From: Acuticoccus sediminis
GTDB lineage: Bacteria > Pseudomonadota > Alphaproteobacteria > Rhizobiales > Amorphaceae
Direction: 5' to 3'
Length of the DNA stretch: 64,000 nt
Assembly: GCF_003258595.1 (NCBI RefSeq)
Contig: NZ_QHHQ01000008.1
Location: forward strand, 1-64,000
The position numbers and the translations under genes are program-made. A model generated the notes under the pieces. It saw nothing but the letters and a program-made list of their open reading frames with translations. It was not told the DNA's origin and made no database searches. Positions 27 through 17,844 of this stretch are shown in pieces; within the stretch, counting starts at the first letter, position 1; the number at the start of each line of letters is the position of its first letter.

Positions 27-1931
27 CTATGCCTTATCGGCTATGCCACCTGTCCGGTCAAAACGGGGTGCGCTCCACTCGGAATCGATGGTGATGCCGG
101 CTTGGCGCAATGCCTGATGGATCTGTTGTTGCAGGGTCGAACGGCCTAGTTGGTCGTTCTCAAACTGCAATTGCTGTGTCACACGCTGGATCGCGTCGGC
201 TTGGCGCTTGGCTGCGGCGGCATCGGCATCGCGATTGGTGTTCGGTGCCGGGTTGGCCGAAGGAATCGAAGCGCCGTTCGGCTCAACGTGCCATGGTTCG
301 TGGCTCATCCGGAAGTTCAGGCCGTAGTTGGCCGCGTTCTGGTGCGCCCATTGGCGTGCAGCATCGTTCCCGTAGCCGAGGTCAGCGGCGAGGCCGTAGT
401 TGTGCTTTGAGCCGCCGGGTGGTGCGACCCATTTCCGTGCAGCCTGTTCACTCCCGTATTTCTCGACGGCAGCCGCAAAAAGCTCCGCTTGGCGCTCGTT
501 CGAACGGAACCCGCTGTTGAGCGAGATATCATGCCCGGCTGCCTTAGCATCGGCGATCATGCGACGTAGGGCGCCTTCGAACGAGTCCTCTAGTGCGCTG
601 AAACTCTTGTTCGAACCGCCGACACCGGCACCAAGGCCAGCTTCACCCTGAAGGTAGGGCCCATACTGGTTGGGAACCGGGATAGGCTGAATATGAATCG
701 TGCCAGCGGTTTGCTCCAGAACGCGCAACTCGGCGTTCGCGTGGGCTAACTCTCGGGTCAACTCGGCAGCACGGTCGCGAAGGCCATCAAGGGTCATCAC
801 ACCGCGCTCACCGTCCGGCAACGCCATGTATCTATTCACCTCGGCAATCTCGTTTTCGAGGTACGCAACCCGTTTCCGCTGATCCTCGATAGCGCGATTG
901 CCGATGGTGCCGGCGAGGTCGTTATCAAGGATCGTCATGCCTTCCGGCACTGACATGAGCCCGTTCGCAGCCGCCCAGTTGTTGATACGCGACCAGAAGT
1001 CCGAATTGCCGAACTCTGTTGCGAGGGTGTCGAGCTTCCGAATGGCGGCATCGATCGCGTCCACAATGCCATATGCAGCGGTGCCAGCATTGATGAACGC
1101 GGTGCGCAGCTTGGTCTGAACAGCCGTGGATAGATCGGCAATGCGTTGGTCGAGAACGACGGCCTTGTCGATCAACTCGCCACTCAGGACCGCACCAACC
1201 TCATGGGCCTCCCGGCGCAGATCGCTCATCGATTGAGTCGACTGCCTGACGACGGTCATGAGCTGTTCGCCGCCAGTGCCGCCGAAAATCTCATCGAGAA
1301 CGCGAATCTGTGCGGCTGTACTTCCTAGCTGCCGAACGCGGTCAATGATTTCGTCGAAAAACTGCGCAGGGCGCTGGAGCTTCAGCGTTACATCCTCAAC
1401 GCCATAGCCGAGCCGGGCAAATGCGTCCGCCGCTGAACCCTTGCCCGTCACTGCGAATTCGTCTGCACGAAGCTGCATTTCTTTGAAGCCGTCAACAATC
1501 GCATCCTGGGACACACGGAACTTGCGCGCTACAAACGAGAATTCCTGAAAGGTCGTCGTATCGAGGCCGGCAACCGCCGCTTCCTTGTTCATTTCGGCGA
1601 CGGCTGCCGTTGCCTCCCTGACGCGACTGACCAACTCGCCAACACCGGCAGCGGCAAAGGCGCCTGCAAGCGCACCACGTACGGCACCGATGCCTTGGGT
1701 AAGATCACCGAGTGATCGGGCGCCCCTACGGCTCAGGCTTTCAAGGGCACGTTCACCGCCCTTGGCGCCGTCGCGTAGTTCCTTCTCGATGGATTTGCCG
1801 GCCTTCTCTGCGCCCTTGTCGATAGTGGCTGCGGCCTTGGCCATTCGCTTCTCCGCGCGTGCCAGAGATTTTTCGTACTCTGCCACCTTGGCCTCTAGGA
1901 GAATAGTAAGTCTTGCGTCATCAGATGCCAT
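27..1931 (-). CDS. Tail tape measure protein with embedded M15 (VanY-type) peptidase domain
   Basis: 634 residues. The first 400 are helical and alanine-rich with a coiled-coil start, as in tape measure proteins that set tail length. Residues about 440-552 form a D-Ala-D-Ala carboxypeptidase-like domain: SGFRS near 473, SKHNYG with H510, D517, and EPWHVEP with H548, the expected zinc ligands of the M15 family. Known siphovirus tape measures carry muralytic domains that act on the wall during DNA entry. Helical sequence resumes after the domain, but the frame stops at a TAG soon after residue 615, earlier than is usual for this class. The ATG has a GAGG about 9 bases upstream. It is the last gene of the operon in view; other tail genes should lie beyond the window edge. 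Confidence 0.85.
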   Translation of the reverse strand: MASDDARLTILLEAKVAEYEKSLARAEKRMAKAAATIDKGAEKAGKSIEKELRDGAKGGERALESLSRRGARSLGDLTQGIGAVRGALAGAFAAAGVGELVSRVREATAAVAEMNKEAAVAGLDTTTFQEFSFVARKFRVSQDAIVDGFKEMQLRADEFAVTGKGSAADAFARLGYGVEDVTLKLQRPAQFFDEIIDRVRQLGSTAAQIRVLDEIFGGTGGEQLMTVVRQSTQSMSDLRREAHEVGAVLSGELIDKAVVLDQRIADLSTAVQTKLRTAFINAGTAAYGIVDAIDAAIRKLDTLATEFGNSDFWSRINNWAAANGLMSVPEGMTILDNDLAGTIGNRAIEDQRKRVAYLENEIAEVNRYMALPDGERGVMTLDGLRDRAAELTRELAHANAELRVLEQTAGTIHIQPIPVPNQYGPYLQGEAGLGAGVGGSNKSFSALEDSFEGALRRMIADAKAAGHDISLNSGFRSNERQAELFAAAVEKYGSEQAARKWVAPPGGSKHNYGLAADLGYGNDAARQWAHQNAANYGLNFRMSHEPWHVEPNGASIPSANPAPNTNRDADAAAAKRQADAIQRVTQQLQFENDQLGRSTLQQQIHQALRQAGITIDSEWSAPRFDRTGGIADKA

Positions 1932-4160: not shown

Positions 4161-4459
4161 CGAAGCTCAAGGGCGCGACGACGGCCAAGCTCGACGACTT
4201 CAATAATTTCGAAATTGTCACCGTTGCAGGATAGGCGGTCGGCTACGGACACATCCGGGCGCCAACGAATGCGAAACGCCGCAACGGTCTCTGAACCTTC
4301 GCCGGAAGCCCTCAGGAAGTCGCTGGTACGCGTCTCGAGCCGTTGGGCATGCACGGTGGCAAACGTGGCCCAACTCTCTGAAATTGCGCCGTATTCGTCC
4401 TGTGCCTGAGTTAGCGCTTTGATCTCAATGATTTTGTCTAGCTGTCCGGAGGTGATCAT
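4142..4459 (-). CDS. Phage head-tail joining (head closure) protein
   Basis: 105 residues. Pattern of the SPP1 gp16-like head closure family: N-terminal GQLDKIIEI, a central EYGAISESWATFATVHA, and the closing VVELGRRRALELRC. This protein closes the connector under the portal so the tail can dock. The ATG at 4459 forms an ATGA overlap with the stop of the upstream gene; an alternative start 15 bases earlier gives the extension MEGDR and is less likely. Confidence 0.78.
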   Translation of the reverse strand: MITSGQLDKIIEIKALTQAQDEYGAISESWATFATVHAQRLETRTSDFLRASGEGSETVAAFRIRWRPDVSVADRLSCNGDNFEIIEVVELGRRRALELRCRGRV

Positions 4460-7803: not shown

Positions 7804-8406
7804 TCATCCCTTCACCGCGTTTGCGAACATTGCGGTCATTAGCGCGTCGCGGGATTTTGGGTCTTTGGCGACGTATGGCTTCTGGGCCTTGTCTTTCGCG
7901 CCGGAACCGAACAATTGGTTCAGCAGCTTGGCACGACCGCGTTGGGCAGCGAGAATCTGACCGGGCGTGCAGTCGAGGGCATCTTTCGGCGTGTAGCCAA
8001 GCCAACCCGTCGCAACCTCGAAAAGCTCGGCATAGAACCTTTTGGGGTTCGGCTTCTCGGTGCTCGTGGTGGATTTGGTGCCTTTGGTCGCCTCGGTGTC
8101 GTCGGCGTCCTCGTACAGATCGGGCGTTGCGCCAGCCAACCCGAGCACGACATTAAGGATCGCTTCGGTGAATGCCGGTGCCGGGTAGGGGCGCAACGCC
8201 AGTCTGGTTGCTTTGGCGATGTCACGGGGGTTCGCGTTGACGGCGCATGCGTGAATGACCGCTTCAATAATTGAAAATTTTTCCCTGATGACGCCATCAA
8301 GGATTGTTTCCATTCCAAACCGGTTATTAAGTGTCATTGCCGCCCGTAGGGTCGGAATCAGCGTCAGCTCAATGTCGTCTACGGTGAGTTGAACCCCGTG
8401 CATCAT
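7804..8406 (-). CDS. Tail assembly chaperone, fused two-part form
   Basis: 200 residues. The N-terminal half (VDDIELTLIPTLRAAMTLN, VIHACAVN) resembles the gene-transfer-agent type chaperone family (Phage_TAC_11-like). After a Thr/Lys/Glu linker (about 102-122) the C-terminal half LFEVATGWLGYTPKDAL and CTPGQILAA resembles the short TAC family that follows it in transfer agents. Most siphoviruses make the two parts by frameshifting or as separate genes; here they form one frame. The role is to coat the tape measure during tail assembly. It starts in a TAATG overlap with the tail tube gene, and one 14/15 copy of the dispersed palindrome lies inside (8262-8276). Confidence 0.72.
   Translation of the reverse strand: MMHGVQLTVDDIELTLIPTLRAAMTLNNRFGMETILDGVIREKFSIIEAVIHACAVNANPRDIAKATRLALRPYPAPAFTEAILNVVLGLAGATPDLYEDADDTEATKGTKSTTSTEKPNPKRFYAELFEVATGWLGYTPKDALDCTPGQILAAQRGRAKLLNQLFGSGAKDKAQKPYVAKDPKSRDALMTAMFANAVKG
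8262..8276. repeat. Dispersed palindrome, 14/15 copy
   Basis: CTTCAATAATTGAAA, one base off the consensus CTTCAATAATTGAAG. It lies inside the tail chaperone gene, where the codons read Ser-Ile-Ile-Glu. Confidence 0.7.
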
Positions 8407-8864
8407 TATGGGGCTTCAGGAGCCGGGGCCATGACGGCAATGCCCTTGTCGCGCGCCAGGATGACGTTGAGGGTCATCACGTGATCGTCGCCGTCACCGC
8501 CAGTACCGATGGCGCACTTGGGGACGTACGCCCTAAAGTAGATCGCTTCACCGTTGGTTAGGGTATATTTGAAGTTGTAGCCGCCGCCATTGTGCGCATC
8601 GATGAGTGCCTGCTGCCCTGCGTCATTGGGGTCATATGCGAACACGCAATCGATAGAACCGGGATCATACGAACCCTCAAACTTGATCATTCGACCAAGA
8701 TTGATGTCCTTAATCGACCCAATGTTGCGTTCACCGGAAATCTCACCGATCTCGTTAAGCTGACCGATGGTCTCGTAGGTATCTGCCTCAAACGCAGCTA
8801 GCCCGTTTGCCGAGGCTGTGGTTCCGATACTTAGGGTTGAAGTGTTGTGTTTAATGACTGCCAT
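8406..8864 (-). CDS. Major tail tube protein
   Basis: 152 residues. The beta-rich sequence, GEISGERNIGSIKDI in the middle, DCVFAYDPNDAGQQALIDAH and the YNFKYTLTNGEAIYFRAYV strand pair fit the phage tail tube family (lambda gpV/TP901-1 type). The tube polymerises around the tape measure. Its upstream spacer carries a weak copy of the dispersed palindrome that overlaps the AAAGG ribosome-binding region. Confidence 0.85.
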   Translation of the reverse strand: MAVIKHNTSTLSIGTTASANGLAAFEADTYETIGQLNEIGEISGERNIGSIKDINLGRMIKFEGSYDPGSIDCVFAYDPNDAGQQALIDAHNGGGYNFKYTLTNGEAIYFRAYVPKCAIGTGGDGDDHVMTLNVILARDKGIAVMAPAPEAP

Positions 8865-8874
8865 TTCAAATGCC

Positions 8875-8889
8875 TTTCAATAATTGAGA
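8875..8889. repeat. Dispersed palindrome, weak 12/15 copy
   Basis: TTTCAATAATTGAGA, in the 35-bp spacer between the capsid and tail tube genes. On the coding strand it overlaps the likely Shine-Dalgarno bases of the tail tube gene. Confidence 0.45.
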
Positions 8890-8899
8890 GAATGGCCGC

Positions 8900-10462
8900 T
8901 TATGCAGCGGCCATCGTGTAGAACGTCATCGCGTCAGGGTTGATAACAGCGCCACCGACACGACGATTGACGTGAACGACGGTCATGTTGTTGGCCGCCT
9001 TGGTGTACGGGTCGCTGAACAGCGTAAGGCCGGCACGATCCACGACGCGGAAGGTCTGGGCGAGGTCGCCGAACAGGATCGGCGTAGCGTCAGCCGCAAC
9101 GTCGTCGAGGTCGGGCAGTTCGATGATCGGGAAGCCAAGGAAGGTCGAAGGCGTCCCGGCAGCGAGGGAGTCACCCCACGCATCCGGTGCCTCGGCGAGC
9201 GCCAGCTTGCGAAGGGCGGCACGCGTCTTGCGGTTCATGAACAGCTTGGACGAGCGGGCGTACTCGTTCGGAAGCGAAACCGTGAGGTCCACAATATCGT
9301 CAATCGCGAGCGTGGTGCCGGTCGCATCCTGAACCGCAACGTTCGCATTGCGCAGAAGGCCGGTCGGCTTCTTGGTGCCGTCGCCATCGAGGAAGGCAAG
9401 GCCCTCAGCCTTCGCGGCCTGTTTGGCGAAATCGCTGGCGATGATCGACATGATATCAACCTGCGAGTCGGCAATCAGGTCGTTGGAAATCGAAACCTGC
9501 GCACCCATGCCGAACGTATCGATGGTGAGAGTGGAGAAGGCGGCATCCGTGTCGGGTCGCGTCTCATTCTCGCCAACCCACGAAACCTGAACGGCGGAGT
9601 CCTGTACCGGAAGCTCAATCGACGGGGCGCCAATGGTCATAACGGACGCAAACTGGCGGAAAGGCGATGCCTCGATCAGAAGGCGCTGCACGGTGGCCTG
9701 GAACGTTGCCGGGGCGAGTACGCCGCCCTTGCCGCCAGAGTCGCCAGTGACTGAAAGTGCCTTCTGGTCGCCTGCGACAAACGCACGGAACGCCTTGGTC
9801 TCGGTCTCGGCAGCATCTTCGGTCTTGGCCGTGATGACACCAGGGCGATTGAGGCGGGTGGCGAGCTTCTGGTGATCGGTCTTAAGGGCGTCAAATGCCT
9901 TCGTGGTCTCGGCGAGACTGGCCTTGAGTTCGCTGATGGTCTCGGCGAGGTCAACGGTCTCGGCCTCGTCTTCAATTACTTCGTTGTCCATAGGGGTAAC
10001 ATCCTGATTTGAAAGAGAATTTGATTTAATAGAGGTGATCCGGGCGTCTGCATTTGCAGGAACAGCCACGACTGAACATTCAAGAAGGTCGACGGACCTA
10101 ATCGTTCGGCCACCACCGCGAATGGGTGTGGCGGACTTGGTTTGAAAGCCGATGCTGAGGCCGGAAGCGGCGCCGGCACGAACCATGGCGTGAACTTCAC
10201 GCGCCTTGGCAACGTCATTGATCAGCAGGTGGCCTTTAAGCTCTAGGCCCTTTTGCCCTTCAATAATTGAAGTCCACACGCCGATGACTTGGCTCTGATC
10301 GTGAGCCCACAGCATCGGAAGGGACGTTGGGGCGCCAGCAAATGCGCCCTTCTCAATGACATCGCCGACGCGGTCAGCCTTGCCGAAGGGCCATGCGATG
10401 CCTTCAATATCGCCGGTATCGCCGGTTGTGAATGCTGCCTTGATTTCAATGACTTCGCTCAT
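8900..10462 (-). CDS. Prohead protease fused to HK97-type major capsid protein
   Basis: 520 residues in one frame. Residues 1-145 are an HK97 gp4/U35-type serine protease with LWAHD (H54), GLSIGF (S103) and LLECSVV (E128). From about 158 a coiled-coil delta domain (ETISELKASLAETTKAF) leads into an HK97 gp5-like capsid fold: GVLAPATFQATV, SPFRQFASVMTIG, PTGLLRN, then FRVVDRAGLTLFSDPY. The protease normally removes the delta domain. An internal ATG at 9991 (MDNEVIED) could give a separate capsid product of 363 residues, though the best purine-rich site is about 14 bases away. It starts in an ATGA overlap with the chaperone-like gene. Confidence 0.92.
   Translation of the reverse strand: MSEVIEIKAAFTTGDTGDIEGIAWPFGKADRVGDVIEKGAFAGAPTSLPMLWAHDQSQVIGVWTSIIEGQKGLELKGHLLINDVAKAREVHAMVRAGAASGLSIGFQTKSATPIRGGGRTIRSVDLLECSVVAVPANADARITSIKSNSLSNQDVTPMDNEVIEDEAETVDLAETISELKASLAETTKAFDALKTDHQKLATRLNRPGVITAKTEDAAETETKAFRAFVAGDQKALSVTGDSGGKGGVLAPATFQATVQRLLIEASPFRQFASVMTIGAPSIELPVQDSAVQVSWVGENETRPDTDAAFSTLTIDTFGMGAQVSISNDLIADSQVDIMSIIASDFAKQAAKAEGLAFLDGDGTKKPTGLLRNANVAVQDATGTTLAIDDIVDLTVSLPNEYARSSKLFMNRKTRAALRKLALAEAPDAWGDSLAAGTPSTFLGFPIIELPDLDDVAADATPILFGDLAQTFRVVDRAGLTLFSDPYTKAANNMTVVHVNRRVGGAVINPDAMTFYTMAAA
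10258..10272. repeat. Dispersed palindrome, exact copy
   Basis: CTTCAATAATTGAAG: 7-bp arms around a central base. It lies inside the protease part of the capsid gene and is read there as Ser-Ile-Ile-Glu. Confidence 0.75.
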
Positions 10463-10779
10463 GCCGGCACCTCTTCGGTGTCGTCGTCATCAACGGCGCC
10501 CATCAGGTCACTTAGCGTCACGAGCGCAATAAGTGCGCACTTCGTGAGGCCCGTTGGCAGCATGTAGGCTTCAATAATTGAAGTGGCGCGTTCAGGGTCG
10601 AGACCACCGCCGACGAGCGACAGACGAAGGATGGTCTTCACGTCCCTCGCGCGCCAGGAGTCAGCCAGCAGTGATCGCGCCAAGCTAGGCAGGCCAAGGT
10701 CGGTCTGGCGCTCAATTTCTTCAATAAGTGAAAGGGTCAGCGCAAACTCATACTCGCCGTCCCCGAAAAAGTGCTTCAT
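10459..10779 (-). CDS. Gene-transfer-agent/TAC_11-like protein between portal and protease
   Basis: 106 residues. FGDGEYEFALTLSLIEEIER, then LGLPSLARSLL, VKTILRLSLVGGGLDPERA and IEAYMLP, fit the family of short proteins found next to major tail proteins in gene transfer agents. Here it lies between portal and protease and is a second copy of the type seen in the N-terminal half of the chaperone at 7804-8406. It overlaps the portal stop and the protease start by 4 bases each (ATGA). It contains one exact and one near copy of the dispersed palindrome. Confidence 0.7.
   Translation of the reverse strand: MKHFFGDGEYEFALTLSLIEEIERQTDLGLPSLARSLLADSWRARDVKTILRLSLVGGGLDPERATSIIEAYMLPTGLTKCALIALVTLSDLMGAVDDDDTEEVPA
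10569..10583. repeat. Dispersed palindrome, exact copy
   Basis: CTTCAATAATTGAAG inside the TAC_11-like gene; coding reading Thr-Ser-Ile-Ile-Glu-Ala. Confidence 0.75.
10719..10733. repeat. Dispersed palindrome, 13/15 copy
   Basis: CTTCAATAAGTGAAA, 136 bp from the start of the neighbouring exact copy in the same gene start; coding reading Ser-Leu-Ile-Glu. Confidence 0.5.
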
Positions 10780-12068
10780 TCCTGTACCTCACTGAAATCA
10801 TTTGAATTTCCTTGTGTGTAAGGGTTGCCGAGGGCATCGGCGTCGGCGGTATCGATCCGGGGCATGTTCTCAATTGCGCGGATCTCATTGGCCGTAAGGA
10901 CGCCGGAGGACCGGGCGATCTGGTAAGCCTGCCAACGGTCCAATGTGGCGGACTTAATGAATTCATCAGTTTCGAACTCAAATAGGAAGGTGTCGCGCTC
11001 TTCAGGCGTCAGGAGCGCACGGCGGTAGGCGGATACCCATTCCCGGTGCCATGGCGCGAGGCTGTAGTCGAGGAAGGCCCTGTTCATCTCGGCAGCGTTG
11101 GACCACGTTGCGCGCGTCAGTTCGTAAGCGAGATGGGGCGGAACGTTGAAGTGCCGACAGATGGCGACATTCGTCTGAATGAGGAGCTTTTCGGCTTCAT
11201 TCTCGGCGAGCGGCTGCTGAATGGTCTCGTACTTCGCGCCGTGCTCTAGGACAGCGATGCCGCCGGCATTCTCGCCGGAAAGGGCCTGTGTCCAACTAGA
11301 TTTGATAGCAGCCCGTGTGTCATCGCCCATGGCCTTCTGAAGCAGAATGATCCCGCCGGGCCTGGAGTTATTTTTGAAGGTGCTCGCGACCGTTTGGGCC
11401 ATCACGAGTGAAAGGGCGATGTCGTCTTTGGCTTGCGAAATCACCGAAAGCCCAGTCACACCGTCGTCGGCCCTCATGCCGCTGGTGATGTGCAGAATAT
11501 TGGAAAAATGCTCGACGACCGTTCCGCCATGGGCCAGCGAAAGCCGATACGTTGGTTCAAGGGTGACGTCGTCGATTTCGATTGCTACGGCGCCAGGTGA
11601 CAGGCGGATTAGCTCGACGGGCCGGCCAGATCCATCGCGGGTGATGTGCGCGAAACCGTTGCCGAACGCGATGGCATCCCGCGTGAGGGCAGTGCGGAAC
11701 GCTGCCGCACTCATCCAGTCTGAAGCGTCACGGTGAACGAGGGTATGGGCCGGGTGGTCCGTTGCTGCTTCCTTGGCGCCGTCTACGCGCTGGTAGAGCT
11801 TCACCGGGATCGAACAGCCGTTGGCCAGGAGGGCAGTGCAGACCGCTACCATTGCGCACTTGGCGGCATTGGTTGGCGTGACCGCGATGCCGGTGTTTGT
11901 GCTGGTCGTAAACAACCAGTCCAAGCCGAACATGCCACTGGTTGTCGTAGCGGCCTTCGTTTCAATCTTTGGTGACGGAATCCGCCTGGAGAGTCTGTTT
12001 AGAATGGTCAAAATATCGCTCGTAAAATTAGTGGAGGTCCGGCGGGAAGGATTTAATGTTCGAACCAA
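10776..12068 (-). CDS. Phage portal protein, HK97 family
   Basis: 430 residues from a TTG at 12068, with an AAGG about 9 bases upstream; no ATG precedes the conserved part except at 11933 (MFGLDWLF). Conserved portal segments include CAMVAVCTALLANGCSIPVK, RDAIAFGNGFAHI, GLSVISQAKDDIAL, PGGIILLQKA and HFNVPPHLAYELTRATW. The dodecameric portal is the DNA gate and packaging motor dock. First gene of the late operon, about 60 bases after a strong promoter. The terminase genes that normally accompany it lie 7 kb downstream. Confidence 0.93.
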   Translation of the reverse strand: MVRTLNPSRRTSTNFTSDILTILNRLSRRIPSPKIETKAATTTSGMFGLDWLFTTSTNTGIAVTPTNAAKCAMVAVCTALLANGCSIPVKLYQRVDGAKEAATDHPAHTLVHRDASDWMSAAAFRTALTRDAIAFGNGFAHITRDGSGRPVELIRLSPGAVAIEIDDVTLEPTYRLSLAHGGTVVEHFSNILHITSGMRADDGVTGLSVISQAKDDIALSLVMAQTVASTFKNNSRPGGIILLQKAMGDDTRAAIKSSWTQALSGENAGGIAVLEHGAKYETIQQPLAENEAEKLLIQTNVAICRHFNVPPHLAYELTRATWSNAAEMNRAFLDYSLAPWHREWVSAYRRALLTPEERDTFLFEFETDEFIKSATLDRWQAYQIARSSGVLTANEIRAIENMPRIDTADADALGNPYTQGNSNDFSEVQE

Positions 12069-12129
12069 ACCGCCGGACCTTGCGCAATCGCTATCACGTA
12101 AAAGGATCTAAACCATGATAACTTTGCGT

Positions 12130-12158
12130 ATTATACTAAATATTTGCGGTTGATGCAA
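12130..12158 (-). promoter_or_regulatory. Sigma70-type promoter of the late operon
   Basis: On the minus strand a TTGCAT (-35, 12153-12158), a 17-base spacer and a perfect TATAAT (-10, 12130-12135). Transcription would begin near 12123 and enter the portal gene. The surrounding DNA is the most AT-rich in the prophage. Confidence 0.75.
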
Positions 12159-12312
12159 TAGATCTTATGTAGATTTGTTGCAAATTGTGCCGAATTATGC
12201 TTCGGCCCTGATTGGGTTTTGTTCTCGATGTCCCGGCGGATGTGTGTTGATACTATTTAAAGCCCTTCAGGACGACGCACAGACGCTCGTTGGTTTTTGG
12301 GGTGACAGTGCC

Positions 12313-12336
12313 TAGGGGCGCGCCGAGGCGCCCCTA
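12313..12336. other. Inverted repeat TAGGGGCGC, possible hairpin
   Basis: 9-bp perfect arms (12313-12321 and 12328-12336) around a 6-base loop. There is no T-run on either side, so a terminator is only one possibility. Confidence 0.4.
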
Positions 12337-12369
12337 CGGCCTCCTATGGGCTTCGTACGGTTCAGGATC

Positions 12370-12550
12370 GCCGGAATGTGGTGAGCGTGGTCTTGGAGGC
12401 AGCCAAATTTGAAGTATGAGTGACGTGTCACGTCACGTCACACTCTCGGGGAGTTCGGAATCGCCGGATGATGTGATGTTTCCGGAGTGTGGTGATGGTG
12501 AGCGACAGCGAACGTCACATTCCGGACGATGGTTTATGTTCCGGAGGTGT
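12370..12550. repeat. Second repeat family, CCGGAATGTGGTGA-like
   Basis: Related elements at about 12371 (CCGGAATGTGGTGA), 12482 (CCGGAGTGTGGTGA), 12512-12525 in inverted orientation (CGTCACATTCCGGA), and a partial copy at 12541 (CCGGAGGTGTTG). A run of CGTCAC half-palindromes lies at 12421-12442. Together with the neighbouring iterons they suggest multiple binding sites for one or more phage proteins. Confidence 0.5.
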
Positions 12551-12557
12551 TGTTAGA

Positions 12558-12782
12558 TGTCATGTAACGCCCATAAATCGCCCCCTTTAAGAATCCTTTG
12601 TTTTTTTGAAGTGACGTCGGTTCTCAAATCAAAAAGAGACTCTAATAGGGAAGCATTTATGGGCGTTACATGACACATGACATCGTCCGGATCGTCAGGT
12701 TGCCTGAATTTATGGGCGTTACATGACACATTCGGCTGCGCCTTCTCCGTATCGCGCGATTTATGGGCGTTACATGACACAT
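12558..12782. repeat. Iteron-like cluster of four 21-bp repeats
   Basis: Exact copies of a 21-bp unit beginning ATTTATGGGCGTTACATGAC lie at 12655-12675, 12708-12728 and 12759-12779 (direct), and at 12558-12578 (inverted). The three direct copies extend to 24 matching bases, and the first and third to about 35 with one mismatch. Spacing between direct copies is 53 and 51 bp, about five helical turns. Such arrays are typical of origins bound by an initiator protein. The putative initiator gene ends 82 bases further on. Confidence 0.75.
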
Positions 12783-12863
12783 GACATCGCCCGGAGATAA
12801 ATCAAAAAGGGGCGCCCGTAATGTGGACACCCCTTCTGAAAGCCAACGATGCGCGGTTTGATA

Positions 12864-14204
12864 TCAAAATGGCAGATCCTCCAGCGCCATCTGCTCGGAG
12901 GCTTCGGGACGACTCTTTGACGTCCAATCGTTCAGGCGATCATAGTTGTCATCGTAAACGAGAGGTTCGGCCTCAGGCTTGGGCTTTTCCAACGGTGCCG
13001 ATTTTTCATCCATCGCCGGAACGTCCAGGTAGCCTAGCAAGCTCTCCAACTCTTCATCAGCCGTAGGCGCGTCCTGTGTCAGCCACGGCGCGCCCTCAAC
13101 CGCAATTGCATTTTTCAAATCAGAATGTCGATTGGAGTTTTCGTGCGCTTCAATCTCGTCTGCACGCTCATCCCAAATCTTGTTATACACTCCCACCTTG
13201 ACCGGATCGGCGTCGGGGTCGTCGTCTAGGTCGCTTATAGCCGATATGAATTCCGCAATGTCGGTAGGGGCCTCCTTCCTGTACCGCTCGCGAAGCCGAC
13301 GACGTTGTTGATTTCGCCGGTCCGCCTCGCGTTTGGTCTCCCTCTCCGCATCAGACAGGGGCGCCTTGTTGGCGCGATGCTTCCTGACGCGTGCCGCCGA
13401 GTTGTCGTTGGGCCGGTAACGCTGCATGCGCGCAACTTTCTTGCGCGGCTTGTCGTTAGCGCCGGTCTTAGCGTTGGACGCTTCAACGGCTTCTCTGTTT
13501 TTGGCGCGCTTGCTGTCTGTGTATGGCCAAGGGGAACCGTACATTTCAGCGGTCAGGGCATCCAAGTCCGTCACGATCTCACTGCGGCGACGGTTCACAC
13601 TGACGCTTTTTGCTGCAATCTCCTCAACTTTGCGGCGCCGCTCTAGATCGTCGCGATTGAAAATTCCGGACTTTCCACCGTCAATGGCGAACTGATTGAA
13701 TGTCGCCAACTTATACATAATGCCGGTAGCGACCTTGGCCGATGATAGCTGGCTGAACTGCGGGAAGTGGGCATAATGAGCCACGTTAAGCACGTAGTCA
13801 TAAATACAATTGACGTTGGCTTCCGAGTACCGAAGCCCTAACACGTCAAAGATCTGCCTTAGCTTCCAAATGCGTTCCGCGTCGCGTGTTTGCCACCACG
13901 TCTGATATTTGGCCGCAGCGACATAGCTACACTCATGGGTTTTGCGCCACTTATTGCGCCACTCCTGATCGAGTTTGAAGAGCACCGGCATAAAGATGTG
14001 TGTACGCTCAAACGGCGTCTTTTGCCGATAATCCTTGTGGCACATCTGATTGCACCACGCATCATGTTCGATGGTGCGGCGCGTGAACAGTGCACGGGTA
14101 GCCGCCGCCTGCTGTTCCGGACCTTTTTCAAAGAGATGAGCTTGTAAGACCTTACGATTTCTCTTGTAATCCGCCTTAGGTTGCCATATAATGTTGCCAT
14201 GCAC
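12864..14204 (-). CDS. Unrecognised 446-residue phage protein, candidate replication initiator
   Basis: 446 residues from a GTG at 14204. I do not recognise the family. Residues 1-210 are a mixed helical region rich in Trp, Tyr and His. Residues 250-310 are strongly basic (KPRKKVARMQRYRP, SAARVRKHRANK), as often seen in DNA-binding replication proteins. Residues 320-446 are acidic and end in LEDLPF, which resembles the C-terminal tip of single-stranded DNA-binding proteins (DDDLPF/DDDIPF) that recruits replication partners. Iteron-like repeats lie directly downstream. No ATPase or helicase motif is visible. A replication role is inference from composition, tail and context. Confidence 0.6.
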   Translation of the reverse strand: MHGNIIWQPKADYKRNRKVLQAHLFEKGPEQQAAATRALFTRRTIEHDAWCNQMCHKDYRQKTPFERTHIFMPVLFKLDQEWRNKWRKTHECSYVAAAKYQTWWQTRDAERIWKLRQIFDVLGLRYSEANVNCIYDYVLNVAHYAHFPQFSQLSSAKVATGIMYKLATFNQFAIDGGKSGIFNRDDLERRRKVEEIAAKSVSVNRRRSEIVTDLDALTAEMYGSPWPYTDSKRAKNREAVEASNAKTGANDKPRKKVARMQRYRPNDNSAARVRKHRANKAPLSDAERETKREADRRNQQRRRLRERYRKEAPTDIAEFISAISDLDDDPDADPVKVGVYNKIWDERADEIEAHENSNRHSDLKNAIAVEGAPWLTQDAPTADEELESLLGYLDVPAMDEKSAPLEKPKPEAEPLVYDDNYDRLNDWTSKSRPEASEQMALEDLPF

Positions 14205-14256
14205 GGTTAAAGTCTTTCTTGATTTTGATCATGTTGTATACCCAAATGAAGCTCTT

Positions 14257-14291
14257 GCCCGACACGCGCCATAACGTGTCGGGCTTTTTTT
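14257..14291 (+). terminator. Rho-independent terminator reading rightward
   Basis: Perfect 10-bp stem GCCCGACACG / CGTGTCGGGC (14257-14266 and 14275-14284) with an 8-base loop, followed by seven Ts (14285-14291). It can only terminate rightward transcription, yet no rightward gene lies before it; both flanking genes run left. Confidence 0.85.
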
Positions 14292-14307
14292 ATTGAAGAG
14301 CGCGCCA

Positions 14308-14661
14308 TCAGCTATGCTGGTATTGCGTATGCAGCGCTTCGTGGTGTTCGCGCGCTTCGGCAAGGCGGGCCTGCGCTTCTGCATGGCGTTCGCGCGCTTC
14401 GGCAAGGCGCGCCTGCGTTTCGGCAACCTGCTGCTTTGCTTCTGCGATAGTTGCTAGCGCCTCCGCGTACGCCTCGACTTCGCGAAGGTCATAAAGCACG
14501 CCGCTACCGACTTTGATCACGTGCGGTCCAATCCCCAGGCGCATCCGGGCGGACAGCGTTGGATACGGCATGCCGAGGATATCAGATGCGGTTTTGCGAT
14601 CCACGTAGGGGCGCGAAGGGTCGAGTTTGCTTAGGTTGGCCGCAATATCGTTGGAATTCAT
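14308..14661 (-). CDS. HTH DNA-binding protein with repeat coiled-coil tail
   Basis: 117 residues. The N-terminal part VDRKTASDILGMPYPTLSAR followed by IKVGSGVLYDLREVEAYAE is an AlpA/MerR-like helix-turn-helix with the turn and wing pattern (about residues 20-65). The rest is a coiled coil built from imperfect copies of a 14-residue unit around ARLAEARERHAEAQ, encoded by a tandem DNA repeat at about 14336-14430. It probably dimerises through the coil. It may be a phage regulator, the only candidate in this interval. AGGAG lies about 10 bases before the ATG. Confidence 0.72.
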   Translation of the reverse strand: MNSNDIAANLSKLDPSRPYVDRKTASDILGMPYPTLSARMRLGIGPHVIKVGSGVLYDLREVEAYAEALATIAEAKQQVAETQARLAEARERHAEAQARLAEAREHHEALHTQYQHS

Positions 14662-14691
14662 GTGAAAATCTCCTCTTTTCTAAATGAGCAC

Positions 14692-14720
14692 ATTGTAGCA
14701 AATATGAATCTACCGCGCAA
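14692..14720 (-). promoter_or_regulatory. Probable promoter of the HTH gene with adjacent dyad
   Basis: On the minus strand TTGCGC (14715-14720), 17 bases, TACAAT (14692-14697), about 30 bases before the HTH gene start. Just upstream, 14732-14749 is a dyad ACAATT-6-AATTGT that could be an operator. Confidence 0.5.
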
Positions 14721-14850
14721 TCGAAAAATTCACAATTGCGTAAAATTGTTTCGCGGCCGGTCTCGCTGATGAGCGTGATCTTAGAAGCGGAGCCGGGGCT
14801 GCATCATGGAAACCCGCGAAGTTTTGCAGGGTATTCCGACGCGCCGAGCC

Positions 14851-14865
14851 CTTCAATAATTGAAG
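14851..14865. repeat. Dispersed palindrome, exact copy in the switch region
   Basis: CTTCAATAATTGAAG. This exact copy lies outside any convincing gene, 245 bases before the excisionase start and 190 after the HTH start. Confidence 0.75.
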
Positions 14866-15109: not shown

Positions 15110-15361
15110 ATGGCGAAATTCATTCCGGGACTCACCACAACCTCTAACCTCCTGTTGAAGTGCGAGGCCGCGAACTATCTGCGGATCTCACCGTCAACCT
15201 TCCGGCGACTTGAGAAGGCCGGCGAGCTACCAGAACCTGTGAAGGTTGGGCCACGAACGCTTTATCGTCGTGCAGACCTTGACGACTGGCTTGCCCCCGA
15301 TTCGCGCACTGGCGAAGATAGCGATTCCGCCGCGATCCTTGCGGCGGTTCGCTGGAGCTAG
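15110..15361 (+). CDS. xis: Excisionase / AlpA-family HTH protein
   Basis: 83 residues. CEAANYLRISPSTFRRLEKAG followed by VKVGPRTLYRRADLDDWLA is the MerR-type excisionase fold (split here: EAANYLRISPSTFRRLEK, about residues 19-36, then the wing). It lies 3 bases before the integrase gene in the same direction, the classic xis-int layout. It should bend attachment-site DNA to drive excision, and may also repress transcription. Confidence 0.8.
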   Translation: MAKFIPGLTTTSNLLLKCEAANYLRISPSTFRRLEKAGELPEPVKVGPRTLYRRADLDDWLAPDSRTGEDSDSAAILAAVRWS

Positions 15362-15364
15362 AGC

Positions 15365-16399
15365 ATGTCCAAAAAATACGTAACGTCCTCGCCCGACCGT
15401 CACGGGCGCATACGACACCGATTCCGACGAAACGGCGTCACAAGATACCTTCCCGGCGATCCGGGAAGTGATCAGTTTGAAGCGACCTATCAGGAATGCC
15501 TCAGGCTGGCCAAGGACGCTGAAACGAACCCCATCAAACGCAAGCTCACGCCACAGGAGGAGGCCGCTCCTGAGGGCTCTGTGGCTGCGCTAATTCGCGA
15601 CTATCGGGCGACGAACAAATTTCTACGCCTGAAGCCTCCGACCAAGCGTCAATATGACGGTGCGTTTGGCGCCTTCATTGATTTGTTCGGGAAGGCGCGT
15701 GTTGCCGACATCGATGTGAAGTTCGTCCTCAACATGGTCAACGACCTCAATGGGACGCCGGGTGTGGCCAACGCCTATCTCCGGTGCATGAAGCTCCTGT
15801 TGAACCATGCGGTCCTGTGCGGCGATATCCCGACCAATCCCGCTAGTCGTGTCCAACCGATCAAGTTGGGCGAAATCGACACGTGGGCCGAAGCGGACCT
15901 AGCGAAGTTTGAGAAGCGATGGCCGAACGGAACGGTGGAGCGTCGCATTTACAACCTCGCGCTCTACACGGGCCAACGTGCATCGGACCTTCGCCGGATG
16001 ATGGTGCACGATATCGAGGATGGCGTGATCTCGATTCGGCAGTCCAAGACGGGGGAGGTGGTAGTCCTACCCATTCATCCGGCGCTGCAAGCCGATCTCG
16101 ACGAATTTCCGCCCAAGGGGGAATTCCTCATCCATCGTGCAGACGGGAAGGGCTACAGTGGCGGCGTCATATCGAAGTTGCTGAGGGAAGCGCTTCGTAA
16201 GGCCAAGCTACCTGAGAACCTGAAGCTACATGGTCTCAGAAAGGCGACGTGCCGACGACTCGCTGAGGCAGGTGCCTCTGAGCGTGAGATTATGTCGGTG
16301 AGTGGCCATCGGTCTCCGCAGATGGTCTCGCACTACGTGAAGGCTGCGAGCCAACGGAAGATGGCAGCGGCGGCAATGGCCAAATTGCTCGCTGTCTAA
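15365..16399 (+). CDS. int: Tyrosine-recombinase integrase
   Basis: 344 residues. An N-terminal arm-binding region and core-binding SAM-like domain (about 70-165) are followed by a catalytic domain with R205 (GQRAS), K228 (SKTGE), H289-R292 (HGLR), H315 (GHRS) and the nucleophile Y324 (SHYVK), all present. Its stop is 72 bases from the 3' end of tRNA-Lys, which should contain the attachment core. Intact and probably functional. Confidence 0.95.
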   Translation: MSKKYVTSSPDRHGRIRHRFRRNGVTRYLPGDPGSDQFEATYQECLRLAKDAETNPIKRKLTPQEEAAPEGSVAALIRDYRATNKFLRLKPPTKRQYDGAFGAFIDLFGKARVADIDVKFVLNMVNDLNGTPGVANAYLRCMKLLLNHAVLCGDIPTNPASRVQPIKLGEIDTWAEADLAKFEKRWPNGTVERRIYNLALYTGQRASDLRRMMVHDIEDGVISIRQSKTGEVVVLPIHPALQADLDEFPPKGEFLIHRADGKGYSGGVISKLLREALRKAKLPENLKLHGLRKATCRRLAEAGASEREIMSVSGHRSPQMVSHYVKAASQRKMAAAAMAKLLAV

Positions 16400-16470: not shown

Positions 16471-16546
<76 letters not shown>

Positions 16547-16674: not shown

Positions 16675-17844
16675 CTACAGCCCCGATATCGCCCGGGCGA
16701 AGTCCTCCGCCTGGAAGGGGGCCAGATCGTCGATCCCCTCGCCGATGCCGATGAAATGGATCGGGAGTTTGTGCTTCGCCGCGATGGCGACGAGGATGCC
16801 GCCGCGCGCCGTTCCGTCGAGCTTCGTCATGACGAGGCCGGTGACGCCCACCGTCTTGCCGAAGATGTCGACCTGGTTCATCGCGTTCTGGCCGGTGGTC
16901 GCGTCGAGCGTCAGGAGCACGGCGTGCGGCGCGTCCGGATTGCGGCGCTTGATGACGCGGACGATCTTCTCGAGCTCGGCCATCAGCTCGGCGCGGTTCT
17001 GCAGGCGGCCGGCGGTGTCGATGAGCAGGACGTCCGCGTCGGCGGCGGCGTCGAGCGCCTCGTAGACGAGGCCGGCGGCGTCGGCCTTCGGTGCGCCCGC
17101 GACCACCGTGCAGCCGGACCGCTCGCCCCAGATCTTCAGCTGCTCGACCGCGGCGGCGCGGAACGTGTCGCCCGCGGCGAGCACGACCTTCTTGCCCGCG
17201 GCCGCCTGCTGCGCCGCGATCTTGCCGATCGTGGTGGTCTTTCCGGTCCCGTTGACGCCGACCACCAGGACGATGAACGGCGCCTCGCCGGTGATCTCCA
17301 GCGGGCGGGCGAGGGGGGCGAGCACCTTCTCCACCTCGTCGGCCAGCACCTCCTGCAGCTCGTCGGCGTCGATGCCGCGGGCGTAGCGCTGCTGCGACAG
17401 GCGGTCGGTGATCGCCATCGCGGTGTCGACGCCGAGGTCGGCCTCGATGAGGATGTCCTCGAGATCCTGGAGCGACGAGGCATCCAGCTTCTTCTTGGTG
17501 AAGAGGCCGGAGACCTGGTCGCCGAGGCGGTTGGACGACCGCCCGAGACCCTTGCGCAGGCGCGAGAACCAGCCGTCCTTCGCGGCTGTCGCCCCGGCCG
17601 TCGGTGCCGGTTCCGTCGCCGTGTCGACCGCGGTTCCGGCCGGGTCCGCGCCGGTGCCGCGAACGTCCGCCTCCCGCACCCCGGTATCGCCCGAGACCGT
17701 GCCCGGGGCGGCGGACGCGGCTGGCGCCGTGGCGGACGCGGGCGCGGTGGAATCGGGCGCGGCGGAATCGGGCGCAGGGATTTCGGGCTGGGCTTCGGCC
17801 GACTTGCGGCGGCCGAAACCCCAGAAGGAACGCCGTTCGCTCAT
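16675..17844 (-). CDS. ftsY: Signal recognition particle receptor FtsY
   Basis: 389 residues. Residues 1-110 form an acidic, Ala/Pro/Thr-rich membrane-association domain typical of the alphaproteobacterial form. The NG domain follows: GVNGTGKTTTIGK (G1, about 197), DTFRAAA, DTAGRL (G3, about 276), TKLDGTARGG (G4, about 340) and the closing GIGEGIDDLAPF. This GTPase docks ribosome-nascent chain complexes to the Sec translocon. The ATG at 17844 overlaps the mtaB stop as ATGA, so the two are coupled. Confidence 0.97.
   Translation of the reverse strand: MSERRSFWGFGRRKSAEAQPEIPAPDSAAPDSTAPASATAPAASAAPGTVSGDTGVREADVRGTGADPAGTAVDTATEPAPTAGATAAKDGWFSRLRKGLGRSSNRLGDQVSGLFTKKKLDASSLQDLEDILIEADLGVDTAMAITDRLSQQRYARGIDADELQEVLADEVEKVLAPLARPLEITGEAPFIVLVVGVNGTGKTTTIGKIAAQQAAAGKKVVLAAGDTFRAAAVEQLKIWGERSGCTVVAGAPKADAAGLVYEALDAAADADVLLIDTAGRLQNRAELMAELEKIVRVIKRRNPDAPHAVLLTLDATTGQNAMNQVDIFGKTVGVTGLVMTKLDGTARGGILVAIAAKHKLPIHFIGIGEGIDDLAPFQAEDFARAISGL

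Follow-up and report, generated by a model that had tools for sequence, protein, structure and literature searches.

A dispersed array of palindromic, putatively protein-bound sites in the late genes of two small Acuticoccus prophages

This work concerns a 64,000-nucleotide stretch of the Acuticoccus sediminis genome (contig NZ_QHHQ01000008.1, positions 1–64,000; hereafter, the window), of which bases 1 to ~16,470 are a prophage. The prophage carries six copies of CTTCAATAATTGAAG, a 15 bp palindrome with one central base, and a related prophage in Acuticoccus yangtzensis carries an array of its own with the same central seven bases, AATAATT. From their sequence, number and placement, the copies almost certainly form a dispersed array of binding sites for a DNA-binding protein, and that protein probably acts as a dimer. 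The array was found here in two prophages of one genus only.

Four of the six window sites lie within late genes, one lies just upstream of a tail gene (site 5, which is non-coding and falls between the end of the capsid open reading frame (ORF) at 8900 and the major-tail ATG at 8864), and one lies in a divergent intergenic gap (Table 1). A preliminary description of this sequence had reported the same six places, mostly inside late genes, and its coordinates and mismatch counts are correct: 10258, 10569 and 14851 are exact, while 8262, 10719 and 8875 contain one, two and three mismatches, respectively. Its statement that the copies far exceed chance is also borne out. Allowing up to three mismatches, the window contains 12 strand-wise matches at seven places—the seventh, at 14284, being the T tract of a terminator—while 100 dinucleotide shuffles give a mean of 0.23 and no more than 2. 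A scan for gapped palindromes returned an uncorrected p of 8e-11 for the window. In a motif scan the six sites score 21.5–25.1 bits, the next match 13.6 and the best of five shuffles 12.6, a separation that is partly by construction because the matrix was built from those same six sites. The central base is oriented alike in all six.

The motif is confined to the prophage. A search of the whole genome (44 contigs, 7,759,911 bases) with at most one mismatch returned 7 strand-wise matches at four places, none of them outside this prophage, and no match for the reversed control; the equal density across the host chromosome that the preliminary description had seen as a reason to abandon the idea is thus not observed. 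None of seven other genomes of the genus contains the exact 15-mer with any centre base. L057 and L058, two further prophage regions in this host, contain no AATNATT, the core with any centre base (0.7 and 0.3 expected). The bare core is more widespread: AATAATT occurs 57 times in the host genome, of which seven copies are in the prophage. In 200 order-2 simulations AATAATT averaged 0.755 copies and never exceeded 3. The seven are nevertheless not decisive by themselves, because another A/T-only 7-mer reached seven in the same simulations.

That four sites fall within genes raises the question of whether DNA or protein is being conserved. As the preliminary description noted, the coding copies are read in one phase, as Ser-Ile-Ile-Glu (8262, 10258 and 10569) or Ser-Leu-Ile-Glu (10719); this shared phase is partly forced, because, of the six ways to read the 15-mer, three contain a stop codon. 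When the codons of 21 window ORFs were shuffled with the proteins held fixed, TTCAAT[AT]ATTGAA was expected 0.006 times; it is observed three times, a number reached in none of 2000 shuffles. For the bare core AAT[AT]ATT the contrast is less extreme (5 observed in window coding sequence versus 1.08 expected; 7 of 2000 shuffles reach 5), and so it is the full palindrome that stands out in the window. The gene lists used for codon shuffling (these 21 ORFs, and 20 from the A. yangtzensis prophage below) were hand-chosen from ORF lists and tblastn results, with some start codons guessed. The preliminary description was mistaken in calling the isoleucine codons of the sites rare: the codon used is ATT, and it is not rare in this DNA (113 uses, versus 143 for ATC and 11 for ATA).

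Comparison with relatives points the same way. Across the 17 regions supplied for alignment, Ser-Ile-Ile-Glu is found in 0 of 16 capsid relatives, 0 of 10 relatives of the TAC tail protein and 0 of 10 relatives of ORF 7804–8406. At the ORF 7804–8406 site three of the ten relatives have Thr-Ile-Ile, and one capsid relative has Ser-Leu-Val-Glu. At the position of the fourth coding copy (10719) none of ten aligned relatives has a site, and the A. yangtzensis prophage reads Pro-Leu-Ile-Glu. Since relatives carry other residues, it is not the peptide that is conserved; rather, the residues found at the sites are specific to this prophage. The pattern that the preliminary description had set against its own proposal, a peptide conserved where the site is lost, was not encountered. 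Together, the codon shuffles and these alignments strongly support its suggestion that the window sites are maintained at the DNA level inside coding sequence.

The closest relative found is a prophage of A. yangtzensis JL1095 (contig NZ_MJUX01000001.1; G007), 18.8 kb in length and bounded by a 39 bp repeat of tRNA-Ser sequence. Fifteen late proteins could be aligned between the two prophages, 13 at 43–76% identity and two more weakly (28% and 38%). The integrases are 29% identical, and the early region has in common a distant protein that we call rep-like (21%, E 1e-7; the label is ours, from its position beside repeats, and is not a database name) and an HTH_17 gene (31%). Ranked by z-score, the most over-represented 7-mer of the A. 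yangtzensis prophage is AATAATT, the centre of the window motif: 18 copies are present versus 0.54–0.56 expected under an order-2 model, and in 200 simulations AATAATT never exceeded 4 and no A/T-only 7-mer exceeded 6. These are 18 of the 68 copies in the A. yangtzensis genome. The chance of such clustering of the core in the prophage is 2e-28 for A. yangtzensis and 5e-11 for the window, both values having been calculated with the motif already selected and the A. yangtzensis size rounded.

The A. yangtzensis array provides a cleaner argument for selection at the DNA level, because its cores use three phases: 13 of the 18 lie in coding sequence, over Asn-Tyr, Asn-Asn, Ile-Ile and Gln-Leu-Phe. 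In codon shuffles these 13 compare with an expectation of 0.92, and 2000 shuffles never gave more than 5. Its sites are also palindromic beyond the core. The three flanking bases on each side pair at 29 of 51 positions versus 19.1 in permutations (p 0.0014; 17 sites, 19795 having been dropped for its overlap with 19792). The preferred flanks, approximately CANAATAATTNTG (column counts of 10–12 of 18), are unlike the CTTCAATNATTGAAG form of the window prophage. The two prophages thus share a core, while the flanks differ and the positions mostly differ.

Site positions appear to turn over. None of the four window coding sites is a site in the A. yangtzensis prophage. In the other direction, ten of its 13 coding sites could be checked at the homologous codons of the window: one, in the head-closure gene, keeps AATAATT (over Phe-Glu-Ile-Ile-Glu); another in the same gene is AATGATT in the window (+ strand, 4427); and two more keep the peptide while codons and core differ (TerL Ser-Arg-Asn-Tyr-Leu and TerS Glu-Ile-Ile). 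Individual sites have come and gone but sites of this kind remain, which is the behaviour expected if the DNA site is bound.

Table 1. Sites of the window prophage, an example site from the A. yangtzensis prophage, and the genes discussed in the text
Feature	Position in window	Strand	Context or reading
Site 1, exact CTTCAATAATTGAAG	10258..10272		inside protease-capsid gene; reads W-T-S-I-I-E-G
Site 2, exact	10569..10583		inside TAC gene; reads A-T-S-I-I-E-A
Site 3, exact	14851..14865		intergenic, between leftward 117-residue gene and rightward xis-int genes
Site 4, 14/15	8262..8276		inside ORF 7804-8406; reads F-S-I-I-E-A
Site 5, 12/15, perfect 11 bp core TCAATAATTGA	8875..8889		11-25 bases upstream of major-tail ATG
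Site 6, 13/15	10719..10733		inside TAC gene; reads L-S-L-I-E-E
Marginal site, 13.6 bits, AATAATT core intact	4198..4212		head-closure gene; core shared with A. yangtzensis prophage (F-E-I-I-E)
A. yangtzensis-type site, example form CAAAATAATTGTG			
200-residue late protein (phrog_7493, function unknown)	7804..8406	-	holds site 4
Major tail protein (phrog_158)	8406..8864	-	site 5 just upstream; ATG at 8864
Fused prohead protease (Peptidase_S78) and HK97-type capsid	8900..10462	-	holds site 1
Tail tube / GTA-gp10-type protein, TAC (PF11836)	10459..10779	-	holds sites 2 and 6
Portal protein, first gene of late block	10776..12068	-	
446-residue "rep-like" protein (phrog_2500, E 5e-5; function unknown)	12864..14204	-	candidate binder
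117-residue protein, modelled winged helix and long helix (sub-threshold HTH_17 match)	14308..14661	-	candidate binder
83-residue HTH_17 excisionase-type protein	15110..15361	+	candidate binder
Tyrosine integrase	15365..16399	+	adjoins tRNA-Lys (16471-16546)

The best single guess at a function, as yet unproven, is stoperator-like silencing of late genes in the lysogen, to which we give about an even chance. It rests on analogy and on placement: the sites occupy late genes and the divergent gap, with no core in the xis or integrase gene of either prophage. One phage-encoded protein, present in the lysogen, would bind the palindromes, occupy many sites along the leftward late genes and, much as stoperators do, keep those genes silent, whether it blocks RNA polymerase or bridges sites. 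The conserved core and changed flanks would then reflect diverged immunity specificity. The A. yangtzensis prophage encodes a Bro-N antirepressor-like protein, which hints at a repressor in that element.

Several observations weigh against silencing by a phage repressor. Family scans recognised no repressor family among the ORFs scanned in either prophage, and the only DNA-binding candidates common to both—packaging proteins and the HNH endonuclease being set aside—are the rep-like protein (21% identity), the HTH_17 protein beside the integrase, and the integrase itself. Two other regions with a phrog_2500 protein (G236 and G183, otherwise unrelated elements) have no excess of AATNATT. No array site lies at 10734–14850, where the promoter of the late block would be expected. 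Beyond the closest relative, 16 prophage regions that are more distant but have homologous portal and capsid genes (L057 and L058 of the same host among them) contain 0–3 AATNATT each, the largest ratio being 2 versus 0.74 expected, and two circular relatives carry only 2 and 1, no comparable excess. Finally, the best analogue by form, the palindrome of Cluster O mycobacteriophages, has no function assigned in its published description, which concerns phages that are not obviously temperate (PMC4351075).

The lack of an excess in the 16 distant regions and the two circular relatives led us to reject the idea that all relatives use the same mechanism. A gapped-palindrome scan of 15 other regions gave, at best, an uncorrected p of 4e-6 (L053), weaker than that of the window; the scan, which requires arms of four bases, missed the A. 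yangtzensis array, where the fixed arms (AAT) have only three. An excess of GTAGCAC in one distant relative (G134) was rejected as a dispersed array, being a local tandem cluster. Searches for further close relatives returned only A. yangtzensis among genome contigs and, among viral contigs, the same prophage and relatives of at most 43% identity. The exact 15-mer occurs in at least 120 viral contig stretches; the 80 listed hold one copy each, and there is no second array among the matches listed.

No candidate binder is strongly favoured. The preliminary description put forward for a binding test the 117-residue helix-turn-helix (HTH) protein encoded at 14308–14661, and that it is a DNA binder is plausible from its model: a winged helix with a 58-residue helix (mean predicted local distance difference test (pLDDT) score 85). 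Among PDB folds the model is nearest to excisionases (best E 1.6e-3); MerR proteins and BldC match less well, and RacA–DNA complexes weakly, at E 0.3–0.4. On the other side, tblastn (E 1e-4) found no homologue of it in the A. yangtzensis prophage, though the same core is present there. HTH_17 proteins do occur beside the integrase in both prophages; the 83-residue xis-like protein of the window gives sub-threshold matches to the HTH part of partition RepA (E 0.016–0.049). The rep-like protein is found in 2 of 297 genomes of the order, its own included, and a profile of the two rep-like proteins retrieved only its own copy from 385 genomes of the class; its AlphaFold model is unusable (mean pLDDT 45). 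It is not favoured as the obvious binder, given that the G236 and G183 regions lack the AATNATT excess.

A protein that binds the sites could also serve another end. In an explanation that we regard as unlikely, the winged-helix, coiled-coil protein encoded at 14308–14661 bridges the palindromes—like RacA, or ParB at parS—and thereby condenses, positions or partitions the phage DNA. The modelled architecture and its MerR, BldC and, weakly, RacA–DNA matches fit this explanation, as does the occurrence of homologous late genes on two circular replicons (17.5 kb and 23.4 kb), one of which encodes a MipZ ATPase. However, both Acuticoccus elements look integrated at tRNA genes, the circular relatives have few cores, and the 117-residue protein is without a tblastn homologue in the A. 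yangtzensis prophage. In the ORFs scanned, no match to a ParA or ParB family passed threshold, the left end of the window element being probably missing, and the arrangement is therefore not that of ParB–parS. Nor was any partition or methylation gene recognised among those ORFs that would support the SeqA- or ParB-like marking site which the preliminary description offered as another option. Somewhat less likely again is that a host nucleoid-associated protein or xenogeneic silencer reads AATAATT-centred sites, and that the phage has evolved to let this protein silence or organise it. The scanned ORFs yielded no recognised phage repressor, and AATAATT outnumbers its reversed control TTAATAA in all eight genus genomes (57 versus 16 in the A. 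sediminis host and 68 versus 13 in A. yangtzensis, prophage copies included), so that the core may matter genus-wide; yet this is weak evidence because the control word holds a stop and rare codons, which may explain the excess. The host outside the prophage has no match to the 15-mer with one mismatch or fewer, its two other prophage regions show no AATNATT excess, and the flanks differ between the two arrays.

Orientation bears on a further proposal, of slightly lower probability, that the sites are polar genome signals used by the phage in replication, recombination (Chi-like), packaging or uptake. The central base points one way in 6 of 6 window sites and in 14 of 18 A. yangtzensis cores. 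In coding copies such a bias is expected, since on the coding strand AATTATT contains no stop in any phase, while AATAATT meets a stop in one phase and needs the rare ATA codon (8 and 11 uses) in another. Codon constraint does not predict the same direction in 6 of 7 non-coding cores (both in the window and four of five in the A. yangtzensis prophage), but these are too few to decide polarity; moreover, the sites are palindromic except for the central base, and are clustered in part of the element. That the 15-mer acts as a small hairpin in late mRNA is very unlikely. On paper the window copy can form a hairpin with a loop of 3 bases, and site 5 lies in a translation-initiation region, whereas the A. 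yangtzensis sites share only AATNATT and loose flanks—too weak, by eye, to fold—and site 3 is outside the late genes. Least credible of all, to the point of near-exclusion, is chance or codon bias. The window has only six sites, and its bare core count is reached in a few codon shuffles; the full palindrome and the A. yangtzensis array, however, exceed every shuffle, and the top word of an independent relative is the same core.

Dispersed phage operators are known mainly from actinobacterial phages. The conserved inverted repeats of the actinophage phiC31 are dispersed and bound by the phage repressor, and are mostly intergenic and in early genes. RacA, a bacterial chromosome-anchoring protein, is a MerR-type winged helix with a coiled coil and uses dispersed inverted repeats; its architecture resembles that of the modelled 117-residue protein, which has a RacA–DNA complex among its weak fold matches. 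Cluster O phages are about four times larger than the present prophages. A literature search found no paper on stoperators in Alphaproteobacteria, nor on Acuticoccus prophages.

The preliminary description likened the sites to stoperators, and in part this holds. Two papers describe the Cluster A stoperators (L5, TipsytheTRex, Trixie) as numerous short sites for a repressor, scattered through the genome of a temperate phage; each is a 13 bp, asymmetric site oriented with transcription and found in a promoter or a short intergenic space (PMC9283540, PMC6550527). The repressor, a monomer with HTH and Stoperator domains, halts transcription in the lysogen. Related phages have similar but not identical motifs, according to one of the papers (PMC6550527). 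The Acuticoccus sites are likewise short, numerous and dispersed (six in the truncated window prophage, 18 cores in the A. yangtzensis prophage), with a core that has been kept while flanks drifted. Unlike the Cluster A sites, they are palindromic and mostly intragenic: the A. yangtzensis flanks pair, and 4 of 6 window sites and 13 of 18 A. yangtzensis sites are in coding sequence. Family scans of the ORFs gave no match to an annotated repressor, the L5 repressor itself not having been searched. As symmetry and placement fail, we do not class the array with Cluster A stoperators, though it may work alike. Nor is the arrangement that of lambda CI, whose palindromic operators cluster at early promoters next to a cI-like gene, the present sites being dispersed through late genes with no CI-like gene recognised among the ORFs scanned.

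Closest in form, though a likeness of kind only, is the 17 bp Cluster O repeat TGTTCGGNNNCCGAACA. The 2015 paper describes a dispersed palindrome with an odd spacer, present in 34 copies in Corndog, about a third of them within coding regions, with one site lost by a synonymous change; it gives little evidence of meaningful orientation and assigns no function (PMC4351075). Both kinds of site are dispersed and also occur inside genes. The motifs have no sequence similarity, and here, unlike in Cluster O, a constant core is combined with flanks that drift from one prophage to the other.

The window prophage is 57% G+C, while host DNA from base 17,001 on has a G+C content of 0.64–0.74 per 1 kb interval. 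Window base 1 is also contig base 1, which cuts the prophage there, and its left end is therefore probably missing. The leftward genes encode the portal, the GTA-gp10-type tail protein, the fused protease-capsid, the major tail protein, an HNH endonuclease, connector proteins, the two subunits of the terminase and a tape measure protein; to the right of these late genes are the 446-residue and 117-residue HTH genes, followed by the rightward excisionase-like gene and integrase. The tape measure protein (window 27–1931) carries a VanY peptidase domain and has 634 residues versus 882 in its A. yangtzensis homologue, possibly an assembly edge effect near the contig start. In A. yangtzensis, the large-terminase match (L046 12370–13686) begins at residue 104, and the first 103 residues have no in-frame counterpart, which may mean damage to that prophage or to its assembly.

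Other elements cluster around the rep-like gene. On the + strand at 14164–14285 is a sigma70-like promoter (TTGTAA-17-TATAAT, 10/12) with a strong terminator (14257–14284); the promoter match is weak alone (2 found, while shuffles give 2.9). The predicted RNA, ~87 bases and antisense to the start of the rep-like gene, is a candidate antisense control RNA. Bases 14199–14290 fold with a z of -5.3, and the Rfam match, anti-hemB, scored 21.7 bits, far under threshold. Directly 3' of the gene, at 12551–12795, are three direct copies and one inverted copy of ATTTATGGGCGTTACATGACA, and the equivalent place of the A. yangtzensis prophage has a 33 nt, 97% inverted repeat (L047 2459–2491 and 2540–2572); these repeats could be a replication origin or control element. 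Among more distant elements, G134 has a tight, iteron-like cluster of TGTAGCACC-like repeats upstream of its portal gene (L054 1382–1485). The circular relatives, NZ_CP157016.1 (L201; Paracoccus marcusii, 17.5 kb) and NC_010721.1 (L202; Methylorubrum populi pMPOP02, 23.4 kb), are annotated as plasmids and carry a replication initiator or MipZ ATPase alongside homologous late genes, which suggests that they belong to this small-phage group as phage-plasmids. L201 shows a small excess of another word, TAATTAA (5 versus 0.24).

With ~20 genes, a small number of DNA-binding candidates and two matched sets of sites that share a core, the two related prophages offer a compact system; it is therefore practical to find the binder and to test late-gene silencing by dispersed intragenic sites. 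In the window, a DNA-level signal coincides with capsid and tail residues that aligned relatives do not have. A more specific proposal, tentative and somewhat doubtful, is that these very small (~18 kb) alphaproteobacterial prophages use a new class of lysogeny control, in which a protein unlike known phage repressors would bind palindromes within late coding sequences and thereby silence those genes, at the cost of altered capsid and tail residues, and in which a fixed AATAATT core with drifting flanks would create new immunity types.

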